From the NCBI GenBank assembly GCA_031280545.1, contig JAITGP010000032.1, positions 1 to 17,480 of the forward strand: 17,480 nucleotides of DNA, written 5' to 3'. The notes beneath the pieces are model-generated. The model had not been told where the DNA came from, did no database searches, and saw only the letters and a list, made by a program, of their open reading frames with translations. The first letter of the stretch is position 1. Every line of letters begins with the position of its first letter. Shown piece by piece: positions 6,608 to 17,480 of the stretch. The stretch comes from Candidatus Peribacteria bacterium (GTDB lineage Bacteria > Patescibacteria > JAEDAM01 > Absconditabacterales > Absconditicoccaceae). Both the position numbers and the translations under genes were made by a program.

Positions 6608-6684
6608 TGGAGCGGGTGACGGGACTCGAACCCGCAACAGTCTGCTTGGAAGGCAGGAACTCTAGCCAATTGAGTTACACCCGC
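6608..6684 (-). tRNA. tRNA-Gly (TCC)
   Basis: Acceptor GCGGGTG pairs with CACCCGC, discriminator T, CCA encoded. The anticodon loop CTTCCAA gives TCC, which reads GGA and probably GGG. U73 and C35-C36 are the usual glycine identity elements. This is not the UGA-decoding tRNA-Gly, which would need anticodon TCA. It is the last gene of the minus-strand array. Confidence 0.96.
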
Positions 6685-6760
6685 ATCAATGTTTACTTAA
6701 TAATAACAATTTTACTCAGTTTTTTCAAGAGATTTTTTTTGATTTTTATATGCCACTAAA

Positions 6761-6837
6761 TGGCGGGATGGAAGGGACTCGAACCCTCGACCTCCTGCGT
6801 GACAGGCAGGCGTTCTAACCAGCTGAACTACCACCCC
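6761..6837 (-). tRNA. tRNA-Asp (GTC)
   Basis: Acceptor GGGGTGG/CCATCCC with one G-T pair, discriminator G, CCA encoded. Anticodon loop CTGTCAC carries GTC between CCTGC and GCAGG. The T loop TTCGAGT is canonical. Confidence 0.96.
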
Positions 6838-6846
6838 ATAAAATAA

Positions 6847-6921
6847 TGGCGGTCTTACGGGGAATCGAACCCCGATTAGAAGATTGAAAGTCTCCTGTCC
6901 TGACCGTTAGACGATAAGACC
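6847..6921 (-). tRNA. tRNA-Glu (TTC)
   Basis: Acceptor GGTCTTA/TAAGACC, discriminator G, CCA encoded. The anticodon loop CTTTCAA carries TTC. T arm CGGGG TTCGATT CCCCG. Confidence 0.96.
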
Positions 6922-6937
6922 ACGCTTTTACAGGACT

Positions 6938-7010
6938 TGGGCGTGGTTGGTTTCGAACCAACGACCAATCGGTTATGAGCCGACTGCTCTAACCCCTGAG
7001 CTACACACCC
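6938..7010 (-). tRNA. tRNA with CAT anticodon (elongator Met, possibly Ile2)
   Basis: Acceptor GGGTGTG/CACGCCC, discriminator A, CCA not encoded. Anticodon loop CTCATAA between TCGG and CCGA. It lacks the GGG/CCC anticodon stem of initiators, so it is an elongator methionine tRNA or an isoleucine tRNA whose C34 is changed to lysidine. Sequence alone does not settle which. Confidence 0.9.
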
Positions 7011-7044
7011 ATAAAGATATGGGAGTATGTTGGATTTTTTCTAA

Positions 7045-7121
7045 TGGTGGGTGATATAGGACTCGAACCTATGACCCTCTGCTTGTAAGGCAGATGCTCT
7101 AGCCAACTGAGCTAATCACCC
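7045..7121 (-). tRNA. tRNA-Val (TAC)
   Basis: Acceptor GGGTGAT/ATCACCC, discriminator A, CCA encoded. The anticodon loop CTTACAA carries TAC between TCTGC and GCAGA. It is the evident parent of the degenerate copy next to it (7164-7230): the first 27 bases of the two are identical. Confidence 0.96.
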
Positions 7122-7163
7122 ATGGTATTTTCACCAACATAATTACCCATTCTTTTTCTTTTT

Positions 7164-7230
7164 GATAGGACTCGCAGACTATGACCCAGCCGATGAATCG
7201 GCTTGCTCTAGCCAACTGAGCTAATCACCC
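7164..7230 (-). pseudogene. Degenerate tRNA-like sequence (tRNA-Val derived, TCA in loop)
   Basis: The 5' half (acceptor strand, D arm) is identical to the neighbouring tRNA-Val. The anticodon arm has been replaced by AGCCG ATTCAT CGGCT: five perfect pairs and a 6-base loop that contains TCA. The T arm is damaged (ATAG TCTGCGAG TCCTAT, one base too long), and the 3' acceptor strand is gone, replaced by an A-rich tract where ATCACCC-A-CCA should be. Without an acceptor stem it should not be charged, so I treat it as a tRNA pseudogene. The fully paired new anticodon stem is odd for a decaying copy. TCA would read UGA, the reassigned codon here, but the acceptor strand is valine-like and the loop is one base short. 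Confidence 0.65.
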
Positions 7231-7273
7231 ATTGCTTTTCCTCTCTTTTTTTCATCTTTTTTAGAATTTTTTC

Positions 7274-7349
7274 TGGAGCCAGCTGACGGAATTGAACCGA
7301 CGACCTTTCGCTTACAAGGCGATTGCTCTACCTGCTGAGCTAAGCTGGC
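7274..7349 (-). tRNA. tRNA-Thr (TGT)
   Basis: Acceptor GCCAGCT/AGCTGGC, discriminator T, CCA encoded. Anticodon loop CTTGTAA carries TGT. T loop TTCAATT. It is immediately downstream of rpsT on the same strand. Confidence 0.96.
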
Positions 7350-7353
7350 ATAA

Positions 7354-7368
7354 TGCCCAACTCGGGCA
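7354..7368 (-). other. Hairpin between rpsT and tRNA-Thr
   Basis: TGCCC, loop of five, GGGCA lies in the short gap between the rpsT stop and the tRNA-Thr 5' end. No T-run follows it on the minus strand, so it is more likely an RNA-processing or stability element than a terminator. Confidence 0.35.
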
Positions 7369-7372
7369 GAGA

Positions 7373-7639
7373 TTACTTGACCTGTGTTTTGTGAAACATT
7401 TTTGCCATTCTGGCTTTTTTTCTACTTGCATTTCTCTGTTTCAGTATTCCAACTTTCAAACATTTATCAATTCTTTTGTAGAGATTACTCAATTCTGCAA
7501 CTTCTACTTTTTCACCCTTTTCTATCGATTTGATGAATTTCTTCATCGCCATTTTCATTCTGATTTTAAAATCTTTATTCCTCTTTTCGAGTTTCTGAGA
7601 TCTATTCATAGCTTTTTTTGCTGAACTTGTGATAGGCAT
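7373..7639 (-). CDS. rpsT: 30S ribosomal protein S20
   Basis: The 88-residue, very basic, all-helical protein matches S20. The N-terminal SSAKKAMNRSQKLEKRNK corresponds to the usual IKSAKKR...EKRRLRNKA. The middle contains KIRMKMAMKKFIKSIEKGEK. The C-terminus NASRKKARMAKMFHK matches the NNAARKKSRLAKK signature. S20 binds 16S rRNA in the small subunit. The gene sits inside the tRNA array on the same strand, between tRNA-Asn and tRNA-Thr, so it is probably transcribed with the tRNAs and freed by tRNA processing. The start is preceded by an AT-rich leader without a Shine-Dalgarno motif. There are no UGA codons. Confidence 0.93.
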   Translation of the reverse strand: MPITSSAKKAMNRSQKLEKRNKDFKIRMKMAMKKFIKSIEKGEKVEVAELSNLYKRIDKCLKVGILKQRNASRKKARMAKMFHKTQVK

Positions 7640-7685
7640 TGATCAAATATCTGATAATAAAATAAGAAGTATAAGGAATGAATCC

Positions 7686-7757
7686 CTCCGGGGGTGGGGA
7701 TCGAACCCACGACCAAATGGTTAACAGCCATCTGCTCTACCGCTGAGCTACCCCGGA
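7686..7757 (-). tRNA. tRNA-Asn (GTT)
   Basis: Acceptor TCCGGGG/CCCCGGA, discriminator G, CCA not encoded. Anticodon loop CTGTTAA carries GTT. T arm GTGGG TTCGATC CCCAC. Confidence 0.96.
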
Positions 7758-7823
7758 ATAGCACGTGAGGTATATATACTAAACTCCAACCCATTTGCAA
7801 GAGATTTTTTAACTTTTTTAATG

Positions 7824-7905
7824 TACCGAGGACAGGACTTGAACCTGCACGCCGTTCAGCACTTGGTCCTAAGCCAAGCATGTCTACCAGTTCCATCACC
7901 TCGGC
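7824..7905 (-). tRNA. tRNA-Leu (TAG)
   Basis: A class II tRNA with a long variable arm (GCTGAACGGC). Acceptor GCCGAGG/CCTCGGT, discriminator A. The anticodon loop CTTAGGA sits between CTTGG and CCAAG. CCA is only partly present. Confidence 0.95.
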
Positions 7906-7930
7906 TTGTACACATGAGTTGTAAAGTTTT

Positions 7931-8004
7931 TGGCTGGGGAACTAGGATTCGAACCTAGACAGACGGAGTCAGAGTCCGGCGTCCTACCATTAGACGATTC
8001 CCCA
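7931..8004 (-). tRNA. tRNA-Gln (CTG)
   Basis: Acceptor TGGGGAA/TTCCCCA, discriminator G, CCA encoded. The anticodon loop CTCTGAC carries CTG. It is nearly identical to the next tRNA-Gln. The differences are the wobble base and one compensated T-stem pair. Confidence 0.95.
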
Positions 8005-8057
8005 ATAGTCAATACATCAAATTGGTTGCGTAGGAAGTATCTGTAATAATTTTTTAG

Positions 8058-8131
8058 TGGCTGGGGAACCAGGATTCGAACCTGGACAGACGGAGTCAAA
8101 GTCCGGCGTCCTACCATTAGACGATTCCCCA
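8058..8131 (-). tRNA. tRNA-Gln (TTG)
   Basis: Same body as the CTG isoacceptor downstream. Anticodon loop CTTTGAC carries TTG. The T stem has a C-G pair where the other copy has T-A. CCA encoded. The pair looks like a tandem duplication with a wobble change. Confidence 0.95.
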
Positions 8132-8163
8132 ATAGTCTATTTTTTAGGTTATAATTAATAAAT

Positions 8164-8238
8164 TGGTTGCGGAGGATGGAATTGAACCACCTACCTTCGG
8201 GTTATGAGCCCGACGAGATACCGTTTCTCTACTCCGCA
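8164..8238 (-). tRNA. Initiator tRNA-fMet (CAT)
   Basis: The anticodon arm GTCGGGCTCATAACCCGAAG has the three G-C pairs diagnostic of initiators, and the D stem has the A11-T24 pair. CCA encoded. Position 1-72 is T-A rather than the C-A mismatch usual in bacterial initiators, a weak pair that may still allow formylation. Confidence 0.94.
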
Positions 8239-8247
8239 ATAACAATG

Positions 8248-8329
8248 TGCTGAGGAAGGGACTCGAACCCTCAAGCCGTAAGGCATACGCACCTCAAGCG
8301 TACATGTATACCAGTTCCATCACCTCAGC
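8248..8329 (-). tRNA. tRNA-Leu (GAG)
   Basis: A class II tRNA with a long variable arm. Acceptor GCTGAGG/CCTCAGC, discriminator A. The anticodon loop TTGAGGT between TACGC and GCGTA carries GAG. It is the first gene after the array promoter. Confidence 0.95.
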
Positions 8330-12153: not shown

Positions 12154-13410
<1,257 letters not shown>

Positions 13411-13708: not shown

Positions 13709-13875
13709 ATTATGTCTAGTTTAGCATAAGTCACTATATTATAGTATCTCTTGAAAAATGTATAGGAAAGAGTACAAAGCCCAAAATGCTGATGAATGTG
13801 TAGATTTGGTAGAAACACACGAAGATAAAAATGTTAAAAAATGTTTTTTTATTCCATATATATATATATGTATTT

Positions 13876-16800
13876 ATGAGTTCCATCATCTCACGAACCT
13901 TAATCGCTGTAATGTCAATACTCAGCTTTTTTGCTACTTCCTATACGATCTTCCCTTCGTTTGTTTCGGGAATTGTGAATTTTGTAAGTGGTACTACTAA
14001 TGAGGACGTTGTTTTAGGCGGTTGTGTACTAGGGGAAGATGGAGAGGAAATCTGCTTTGAGGATGAGGAACAAGAAGACTGAGCCGAAGAGGGAGAGGAG
14101 CCACAACTATCAGAAGGCTCAGAAGCGGAAGATGGAGATGGAAACGAATTAGAAGAATGAGATGAATCATGAGATGAAGCATTAACTGAGGACGGAGACG
14201 AGTGATCAGAAGAAAATGAAGGCTGAACCGAGGACAGAGATGAGGAAAAAACACTAGCTTCTCTGGAGATTTATAATCTTAATGATACGTTCCAAACCTA
14301 TGCGAATCCAGTATGTGATACTCCGGATATCACGATTGGAAATTACACTATCAAGGCTTGTAATGTAGGAGCATCTATTGCTGGAACAGGAATAGATTCC
14401 TATGGTGCATTATTTCAGTGGGGGAATAACTATCTGTTTCCCAATACGTGAAGTAATTTTCTCTCAGGAGCGACCAAACCTGATGCGAGTAGTTTTGGAC
14501 CACTTAATCCCTATAGTAGCGGATATTATGTGCTTTCCGGACCCAACTGGTCGTCTATCCCCAACGGAAACCTTCGAGGAGGTGCAGCAGACACGCCAGA
14601 AAGTCGAACGGGAAGAGACGCAGACAGACAGTGACCTTGTGACCTAGGCTACCACGTCCCTAGTGCGTATGAGCGGGGAGATTTTCTTATGACCCGATAC
14701 TATGTAAATTCTGGAACACTTGGAGGAACCTTGTCAGATACTTGAAGTGGCTTGCCATCGTTGGTTGGGGGAACCATAGGAGACAATTTTAGAAATCAGT
14801 TTTTACTTCCTTTAGTGTGACGTCGTGGATTTGATGCAGCTGCTACAGTAAATAGTCAGGGAAGTGCGGGATATTATGCGTCTTCTACTCCTCTTAGTAC
14901 CAATAATACCTATGGACTCTTTCTCCAGTCCACACAAATCGTTACTTCTAATAATAGTTCTCGTGCTTACGCTGTTCCCGTGCGTTGTTTTAAAAATACT
15001 CCTCCGCCAGTTCCTGTATCCACTTGTGATAGTCCAGACATCACGATTGGAAATTATACCATCTCAGCTTGTAATGTCGGTACTTCTATAGCGGGACTTG
15101 GATCTGCTTCGTATGGAGCTATGTTTCAGCGAGGAAACAATTATGGATTCCCATCTGTAGGAACAATTTCAACAACAAGTAATACTCAAGTAGACGCTTC
15201 GTCATACGGACCAACGAACCCATACAATAGTAGTACGTTCATAGCGTGATACTCTGATTGGTCAAGCCCACAAAATGATAATCTCCGAGGAGATACAGAT
15301 AATACCCTAGAAGCGAGACAATGACCATGTGCTACTGGATATCACGTCCCAACAAGAGATGAACGAGTACAGATGAGGGCTGAAGGGGGATGGTGAAGTA
15401 ATGGATCACAGATGTCAACAGATCTAAAGTTGCCTATGGCCGGATACCGTTCCTACAGTGACGGTTCACTCAACGATCAGGGATCCTACGGCTACTATTG
15501 GTCGTCTAGTCCTGATAGCCCCTACGCCAACAACATGTACTTCGATTCGTCCTACGTCAAGCCGCAGACCAGCAACGACCGTGCCGCCACCCTCTCCGTT
15601 CGTTGTTTCAAAAATATCCCTGTAGATACTGGTGCTTTCATCACGACATGGGATACTACGATCACATGAACGGGAAGCAGTAATGCAACTACGATCATCA
15701 TCCCAACCACAGGGACAGGATATGATTTTGAAGTAGACTGGGGAGATGGAATCGTAGATAACTTCACGGGAACCGCACCGACGGTAAGTCATAGTTATGC
15801 AACAGGTGGAGTGAAAACGGTAAGTATTCGTGGGGATTTCCCAAGAATTTACTTCAACAATACAGGGGACAGAAATAAAATTCTGACTGTTGAGCAATGG
15901 GGAGATGTAGAGTGGACGAGTATGCAAAATGCTTTTTATGGATGTGAGAATTTGCAAATTCCAGCTCCAGATGCACCTATATTCACAGGGTCTACTATTA
16001 GTATGGCAAATATGCTCAGAGGAACGACAAACTTTAATAGTCCAGTAAATCACTGGGATACTAGTAAAGTAACGAATATGGGGAATATGTTCTATGGAGC
16101 AAGTAGTTTCAATCAACCTGTAAATGATTGGATAGTAGATAATGTTAGTATTATGTCTAACATGTTTAGAGAGAGTGCATTTGATCAACCACTTGATAAC
16201 CGAAATATAGGGAATGTGACTGCTATTGGAGCTATGTTTGAAGATAATAGATACTTCAATCAAGATATTAGTATGTGGAATACTAGTAAAGTAACTAATT
16301 CACAGGGAATGTTTAAAGGAGCAATAAGTTTTAATCAAGACATAGGTAGCCGAACTATGAGTGGGGTAAATGCTATAGGAGGTATGTTTTATGGAGCTAG
16401 TGGGTTCAATCAAGATTTGTCTACTTGGGATATTCACAATGTAGGAGTATTGGACTATTCAGGAAATGGACTCTATCTTTGATTGTTTGAAGGAGCAGGA
16501 CTTTCTACGTATAATTATAATCAAATTTTATCAGGACGAAGTATGCAAGCAGTACAAAGCTGACTGGACTTCACAGCTATGCCTACTCAGTATGGAGGGT
16601 GTTTAGTGAATGCTCAGGACGGTGTCAATGGAAGAGCGACCTTGCAGTCCAAAGGCTGGACGATTGATGATGGAGGATTGGCAGATTGTGCTATTACGGG
16701 AATGCTCACCTACAATCCAAGTAGTGCTACGAACCAAGATGTGCTAGCTACGTTGACCTTGAATATGACAGGAAGTGTGATGTTATCTGGCTGGACTACC

Positions 16801-17480
16801 GTTAATGCTACCACCTTCACGAAGCTCTATACAGGAAATGTGAGTGGAGAAGTGGTGAACTTCGAAAGTGTCTATGGCTACACGGGAGTATCCTTCGTTA
16901 TCATTAGCCGAATTGACAAAACGCTTCCAGAAATCACGAATTTGACCTATACTCCAGACACTGCGACAAGTGGAAATGTAGAGGTAAGTATCACGCTGAA
17001 TGAAGCAGGAATCATCACAGGACGAGCGACGGCAGGTAATTTGACGCGGACGAAAATTTTCGATACAAATACAGGGTATACGCTGACTTTCTCCGACATA
17101 GTAGGAAATACAAACACAACGGGAATAACGATAAACCGAATAGACAAAACTGCGGTAACGTGAAGTATAGCGTATAGTCCGAACACGAACACGAACCAAG
17201 ACGTGAACGCGACTATCACGTTTAATAAACCTAATGTAACGGTGACGAATAATGGAGGAAACACGAGCTACACCTTCACAGGAAACGGAAGTTTCACGTT
17301 TGAGTTCGTAGACCAATACGGCAACACGGGAGCAGAAACCGCAACGGTGAACCGAATAGACAAGACGATCCCTAGTATTATTAGTATGGTGTATTCACCA
17401 AATGCTCAAACTTCTGGACCTGTTATCGTTACAATTACTCTTAACAAACCCGGAACGGTGGTAGGATGGACAAAAGTAGA
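13876..17480 (+). CDS. Giant surface protein: two FISUMP domains, BspA-type repeats, Ig-like repeats (3' partial)
   Basis: One frame of 1201 visible codons, open to the window edge, holds 16 UGAs read as glycine. Domains in order: signal or anchor helix (MSSIISRTLIAVMSILSFFA, residues 1-40); acidic Glu/Asp/Gly linker (about 50-130); FISUMP domain 1 (about 147-374) and FISUMP 2 (384-580), both opening CD-PDITIGNYTI-ACNVG and closing VRCFKN; a BspA-type start with WGDG at about 622; six 25-residue DUF285 repeats to about 869; then Ig-like repeats of about 72-76 residues, each ending NRIDKT or similar. In both FISUMP domains the conserved QGPC glycine is a UGA (14632, 15322). Such proteins are typically displayed on the cell surface and bind ligands or cells. 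ATG 13831 is an alternative start giving 15 more residues. The end of FISUMP 2 has foreign-looking composition (see 15439-15606). The C-terminus lies outside the window. Confidence 0.88.
14314..15615 (+). repeat. Tandem FISUMP domain duplication
   Basis: Copy 1 spans about 14314-14997 and copy 2 about 15025-15615. The copies share the opening CD-PDITIGNYTI-ACNVG-SIAG and SYGA-FQ-GNNY-FP, the middle QGPC...GYHVP motif and the closing VRCFKN. They are divergent at DNA level, so the duplication is not recent, and only copy 2 has the GC-rich end. Confidence 0.8.
15439..15606 (+). other. Putative DGR variable region in the second FISUMP domain
   Basis: This stretch encodes AGYRSYSDGSLNDQGSYGYY, then WSSSPDSPYANNMYFDSS, then YVKPQTSNDRAATLSVRC. 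Its pattern (GYR...GSYGYYWSS...YF-SS-V-P...N-RA...SVRC) is that of C-type-lectin-fold variable regions in DGR target proteins. Composition changes abruptly: 37 of 60 bases are G or C at 15541-15600 against 22 of 60 at 15121-15180 in the same gene. NNC codons dominate (TAC, TCC, GGC, GCC, AAC, GTC, CCC), as expected when AAC codons of a template are randomised at adenines. There is no UGA inside it, although the flanks have them. No template repeat or reverse transcriptase is in the window, so this is a candidate. Confidence 0.6.
16033..16482 (+). repeat. Six BspA-type (DUF285) 25-residue repeats
   Basis: Units begin FN or FD at 16033, 16108, 16180, 16255, 16330 and 16405, spaced 75, 72, 75, 75 and 75 bases. 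The consensus is FNQ-(I/V/L)--W-(T/D)-SKVTNM--MF-GA-S. This is the 25-residue repeat known from BspA-like and mycoplasma surface proteins. The second-to-third unit is one residue short. Confidence 0.85.

Follow-up and report, generated by a model that had tools for sequence, protein, structure and literature searches.

Results

A UGA-recoded adhesin-like gene with two FISUMP domains

The window, i.e., the whole stretch of 17,480 nucleotides analyzed here, contains on its forward strand an adhesin-like open reading frame (ORF) at positions 13831-17478, which reaches the 3' end of the window with no stop codon. This frame is open only if TGA encodes an amino acid; it has 16 in-frame TGA codons, translated as glycine under code 25. 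The predicted product, presumably an adhesin, is composed of two FISUMP-type domains followed by DUF285/PARCEL repeats, all encoded on the forward strand: FISUMP-like domain 1 at 14305-14997 (start approximate), FISUMP domain 2 at 15022-15630, and the repeats at 16153-16446 (best Pfam DUF285 stretch at residues 775-872; NCBIfam TIGR02167). Domain 2 matched the Pfam Fib_succ_major family (PF09603) at residues 524-594 with 37.9 bits, passing the curated cut-off of 33.9, and the NCBIfam model TIGR02145 scored 31.3 on the FISUMP domain, under its cut-off of 41.65. In both FISUMP domains, the glycine of a QGPC motif is encoded by TGA. A weak model suggests that domain 2 has a C-type-lectin-like fold; in the search for related folds, none of the solved structures matched in sequence at E ≤ 1.

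The window also carries an enolase gene (12154-13410), a cluster of twelve tRNA genes on the reverse strand (6608-8329), and a tRNA-His gene (2870). By enolase, the closest contig in the contig collection was a Gracilibacteria MAG with 75% identity, and among the 245 of 353 class genomes with an enolase match, the closest were G065, G066, and G070 (89%, 88%, and 84%). The nearest named genome, G001, is without RVT_1. A search of phage records gave no match, and FISUMP ends were found in viral contigs at two loci, which were included in the third-base scoring. Several catalogue proteins (P0094, P0010, P0014, and others) were observed to have Trp at conserved-Gly columns, the pattern expected if Trp had been assigned to TGA in organisms where UGA encodes Gly.

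A patch of C-ending codons at the end of domain 2

At the C-terminal end of FISUMP domain 2, a stretch of 56 codons in frame with the ORF (15439-15606; peptide MAGYR...SVRCFKN) showed a GC3 of 0.70 and a C3 of 0.55, whereas the remaining ORF had values of 0.34 and 0.16. It contains 31 C-ending codons, the maximum of the ORF for a window of this size, reached only here and in overlapping neighbours. This count was attained in any 56-codon window in 0 of 20,000 codon shuffles of the ORF, and the patch itself never attained it in 5,000 trials that exchanged synonymous codons only. Widened by one codon to the left and three to the right, the patch reads MAGYRSYSDGSLNDQGSYGYYWSSSPDSPYANNMYFDSSYVKPQTSNDRAATLSVRCFKN; it includes none of the in-frame TGA codons. 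The homologous end of domain 1, our internal control, had a GC3 of 0.22 and a C3 of 0.13. Both observations of the preliminary description, a GC-rich patch dominated by C-ending codons at this domain end and its absence from domain 1, were thus confirmed. Its bounds stood in part: 15439-15606 is the C3-richest 56-codon stretch, and homology to the repeats of related genomes (see below) suggests that the candidate variable region (VR) spans about 15436-15615 on the forward strand, a few bases beyond. No repeats were found within 15300-15720.

This patch had been proposed to be the VR of a diversity-generating retroelement (DGR), with a near-copy of it, a reverse transcriptase (RT), and an avd gene to be looked for nearby; in the 17.5-kb window, none of them was found. 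No template repeat (TR) copy of the VR was detected, the best ungapped 84-base match being 50% and lying in FISUMP domain 1; the frames of the window gave no match to the RTs of ten relatives; and no Avd was found. The lack of TR, RT, and Avd in the window counts against the DGR reading.

DGRs of related genomes

A protein search with the patch gave matches in 47 of the 353 class genomes. TR/VR pairs were looked for in sequence stretches covering 50 loci from 23 genomes. The pair detector asks that at least 75% of the mismatches be at A, and therefore part of the A bias in the pairs is selected. Eight of the 23 genomes had TR/VR pairs with mismatches at template adenines. The pairs were of the FISUMP type in G044 (with two VRs), G245, G103, G021, G025, G002, and G117, and of another type in G112. 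When the mismatches of the nine pairs from these eight genomes were summed, 161 of 446 template A positions had changed, as compared to 8/390 C, 2/333 G, and 4/403 T (14/1,126 for the other bases together). A shorter second pair of G021 (L113; 7/8 mismatches at A) is outside this sum, and G025b, a reverse-complement reading of the G025 pair, was dropped. As controls, the detector was run with C or G in place of A, which gave matches in G066 alone, and these were repeats; with T, the same pairs were recovered on the opposite strand. The G066 rows scoring above 160 were tandem protein repeats, and the G066 TR was read separately. Pairs from two genomes were less pure: in G083, 14/67 A against 7/126 other positions (L179) and 30/64 against 15/122 (L178), and in G066, 11/43 against 6/138 and 14/43 against 14/139. 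Further pairs lie close to RTs in additional genomes of the class (L091, L093, L094, L095, L103, L108, and L110).

DGR-type RTs carry the motif [ILV]GxxxSQ. Nine of the ten RTs of relatives that were read have IGNLTSQ and YVDD, the exception being that of G099. A VR, an A-biased TR, and an RT were found together in G044, G245, G103, G021, G025, G002, and G117, and these genomes are thus taken to carry DGRs; the RT motif was read for the first six, and the G117 RT was recognized by homology to that of G066. Avd-like frames were present at 11 fetched loci, the query's own counted, three of them weak, and that of G021 scored above the Pfam bAvd cut-off and under the NCBIfam Avd cut-off. In G103, the TR and VR alike (L166:3772-3956 and 2808-2992) contain an in-frame TGA, glycine under code 25, i.e., a recoded codon inside the DGR cassette. 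At L112 (G021:C110), on the edge of the contig, a DGR-type RT adjoins a VR-like FISUMP end, and no TR for this end was found in the three G021 contigs compared.

The third-base composition was common to TR and VR and differed from that of the surrounding gene in most relatives compared. The GC3/C3 values of VR, TR, and rest of the gene were 0.54/0.38, 0.56/0.40, and 0.14/0.07 in G044; 0.78/0.56, 0.75/0.56, and 0.47/0.28 in G245, where the code-25 frame continues into avd; and 0.64/0.39, 0.65/0.38, and 0.38/0.22 in G021. The VR C3 was not raised in the DGR genomes G002, G003, and G081, and this counts against the reading of our patch as a VR.

Next, the patch was related to the presence of RTs across the class. 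RVT_1 was detected in 118 of the 353 genomes, being present in 25/47 of those with a patch match and 93/306 of the others (p = 0.002). A strong DGR RT match was found in 15/47 genomes with VR-like FISUMP ends and 15/306 others (p = 3e-7), these 30 positive genomes having been hand-picked at about E ≤ 1e-50. The other 32 of the 47 are without a strong DGR RT match, G112, which does have a DGR, among them, and this speaks against a simple DGR reading. For a comparison of FISUMP ends, 30 of the 47 genomes contributed one locus apiece, which gave 31 ends with enough flank. A GC3 excess of at least 0.23 was shown by 8 of 10 ends in DGR-RT genomes and 5 of 21 in the others. Two further results count against the DGR reading: the separation of both groups by patch was modest (p = 0.048 for C3 and 0.016 for GC3), and the patch was present in G064, G043, G099, G020, G120, and G068, which are without a strong DGR RT match. 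The C3 excess of the window (0.37) was above that of all 31 ends, and its GC3 excess (0.34) above 28 of them.

Codons of the patch compared with the templates of relatives

The plain comparison of A and non-A mismatches between the window VR and the relatives' TRs gave a weak difference, e.g., 20/52 against 37/124 with G245, because templates diverge between species; we therefore used a test based on codon columns. The window was aligned by codons with the TRs of seven relatives, not the TR of its own organism, and a column was called template-AAY when at least half of the seven TRs read AAC or AAT. At the 17 columns so defined, the window has TAC TCC AAC GAT TAC TAC TAC AAC TAC GAT AAG ACC AGC AAC GAC GCC AAT. 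NNY was found at 16 of these columns (background 593/1153, p = 2e-4) and NNC at 13 (background 185/1153, p = 8e-8), with Asn kept at four. At the other TR-conserved columns, the window agrees at 18 of 20. Against these seven TRs, the VR codons follow the change from template AAY to NNY, and the other positions are conserved. NNC was also raised at the non-AAY columns of the patch (20/44), and this is counted against the VR reading.

The third bases at AAY codons were then scored in the patch and in domain 1, leaving out the misframed rows TR_G083 and TR_G066. Compared to the G044 and G245 TRs, the patch had 5/19 and 5/19 mismatches, as opposed to 15/19 and 17/19 in domain 1; the third bases of this control do not follow the relatives' templates. 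With the TRs of G103, G021, G025, G002, and G117, the patch had 8/21, 8/16, 7/16, 6/14, and 12/23 mismatches, and domain 1 had 13/21, 11/16, 11/16, 11/14, and 17/23. When mismatches at positions 1-2 of AAY codons in the patch were tested against those at position 3, none of the seven TRs, all from other species and offering 14-23 codons each, gave a significant result (best p = 0.076). Domain 1, too, has more mismatches at AAY codons than at other codons, which again counts against the VR reading.

Variable regions of the closest relatives

G066 carries an RT and a TR on one contig, and two different contigs have the VRs that match this TR; therefore, a TR lying outside the 17-kb window is no surprise. 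Among seven paralogous VRs of this genome (13 loci fetched), codon positions 1, 2, and 3 differed by 0.32, 0.21, and 0.28, as compared to 0.26, 0.24, and 0.41 in the upstream part of the domain. Four paralogous VRs of G064 (six loci fetched) gave 0.31, 0.26, and 0.19, against 0.06, 0.11, and 0.27 upstream. The usual third-position excess is thus gone or inverted in the VRs of both genomes, and the third bases of their hypervariable columns are C or T in 155/167 and 74/76 cases, respectively. No RT match was obtained in G064, though it has 10 VR-like places, and G065 and G070, two of the three closest relatives, gave no match to a DGR RT, an observation that counts against the DGR reading. A second type of VR-like end was observed in G066 (L154-L158, L161, L162, and L164); a DNA search of this genome with one of these ends detected VRs only and no TR.

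Internal position of the candidate variable region

The VR of the window is followed by 621 codons inside the window, with the ORF still open, and thus it is not at the C-terminus, the position that is typical, not defining, of DGR targets; this counts against the DGR reading. The frame ends at the TR-matched FISUMP VR in G245 (by the standard code), G103, G021, G025, and G002, and G044 is therefore the exception among the genomes compared. There, a stop-to-stop frame of 4,406 codons with 184 in-frame TGA (L232; G044:C4:31830-45047) contains two VRs, both TR-matched and internal, which start at residues 643 and 922. The TR (30621-30815) and the RT (28876-30102), both on the reverse strand, adjoin this frame. 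One non-A difference from the TR, a C to G near the TR 3' end, is common to both VRs and may mark a homing site. We also searched 3' of the VR for a hairpin of at least seven pairs, a candidate DGR cis-element: among the nine stretches tested, it was found after the VRs of G103 and G021 only, and neither the window nor the two VRs of G044 had one. A count of internal domains in catalogue proteins (89 of 109 with the domain; 120 scanned) was not used as VR evidence, because a VR and an ordinary FISUMP end are indistinguishable there.

Discussion

Collectively, these data point to the patch being the VR of a DGR, a reading to which we give a probability of roughly 85%. The preliminary proposal, a VR with a bias inherited from a template, is well supported by the relatives, where TR and VR share GC3 and C3 and the template AAY codons coincide with the changed codons of the window; no TR, RT, or Avd was found within the 17.5 kb. 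The TR and RT probably act in trans from elsewhere in the genome of this organism, where the system may be active at present. Mutagenic retrohoming is the established mechanism of DGRs. By its steps, RNA transcribed from a TR at another genomic site, as seen in the relatives and presumed here, would be reverse-transcribed by the DGR RT together with Avd, which would misread adenines, and the resulting cDNA would take the place of the end of FISUMP domain 2. Template codons AAC and AAT would become NNC and NNT, which are never stops, and the non-adenine positions would be copied faithfully, so that the C-rich third bases would be kept. The long surface protein would then have, midway along its chain, a ligand-binding surface that is redrawn again and again.

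It is also conceivable, and in our judgement unlikely, that the patch is a fossil, written by an ancestral DGR or imported with its module, the TR and RT having since been lost and the sequence fixed. The 32 genomes with VR-like FISUMP ends and no strong DGR RT match, and G064 with its VR-like places, would fit such a history; the genomes of relatives are drafts, and RT losses are therefore probably over-counted. Against it, the ends of domain 1 and of other FISUMP domains that have no patch suggest a drift of third bases towards host codon use over time, and the C3 excess of the window patch is larger than that of all 31 relatives' ends compared. An origin apart from DGRs, with this domain end being either a segment recombined in from another, GC-rich FISUMP gene or an island of codon usage or RNA structure, would agree with the patch-wide rise of NNC and with patches in genomes lacking a strong DGR RT match, but is very improbable, as the patch bounds are those of the relatives' TR/VR repeats, most TR-matched VRs and their TRs have the same bias, and the amino-acid differences from the templates fall mainly at TR AAY codons.

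DGRs, VRs of the FISUMP type, and enrichment of DGRs in CPR were already known. The preliminary description had called DGRs frequent in CPR, and in line with this, Roux et al. 2021 (PMC8144416) report that cell-encoded DGRs are enriched in CPR, with VRs in C-type-lectin-like domains. These Patescibacteria/CPR systems resemble those described here in the RT and TR found in relatives and, should domain 2 have the weakly suggested fold, would also do so in the type of domain carrying the VR. They differ in that, according to the same paper, VRs are typically at C-termini, likely tied to cis-acting DNA needed beyond the VR, whereas the VR of the window is internal, and its TR and RT are seen in relatives only. 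Among human microbiomes, PMC4159848 lists in its Table 2 nine proteins that are DGR targets with Fib_succ_major, the same Pfam domain that carries the VR in the window; the VR is at the protein end in the example given there, as opposed to an internal position in a UGA-recoded Gracilibacteria gene. The variable proteins Mtd of BPP-1 and TvpA of Treponema differ in that the window protein matched no solved structure in sequence, and support for a shared fold is weak. In open-access full text, we found no literature linking DGRs with FISUMP by that name, and none on internal DGR VRs; the passages found on Gracilibacteria and DGRs name CPR DGRs in general.

A third-base patch of this kind may serve to flag VRs in metagenome contigs that have no template, with a specificity that was modest here. 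The unusual feature is the position of the VR inside a long surface protein encoded by a UGA-recoded gene, for which G044 offers a parallel matched by a TR. Such internal VRs make the requirement for downstream cis-acting DNA, which PMC8144416 gives as the likely reason for C-terminal VRs, open to testing. We lean towards the view that UGA-recoded Gracilibacteria run DGRs with VRs inside giant surface proteins, of which the adhesin of the window would be a second case: homing would proceed without downstream intergenic cis-elements, and one template would rewrite several internal lectin modules, two of them in the long frame of G044.
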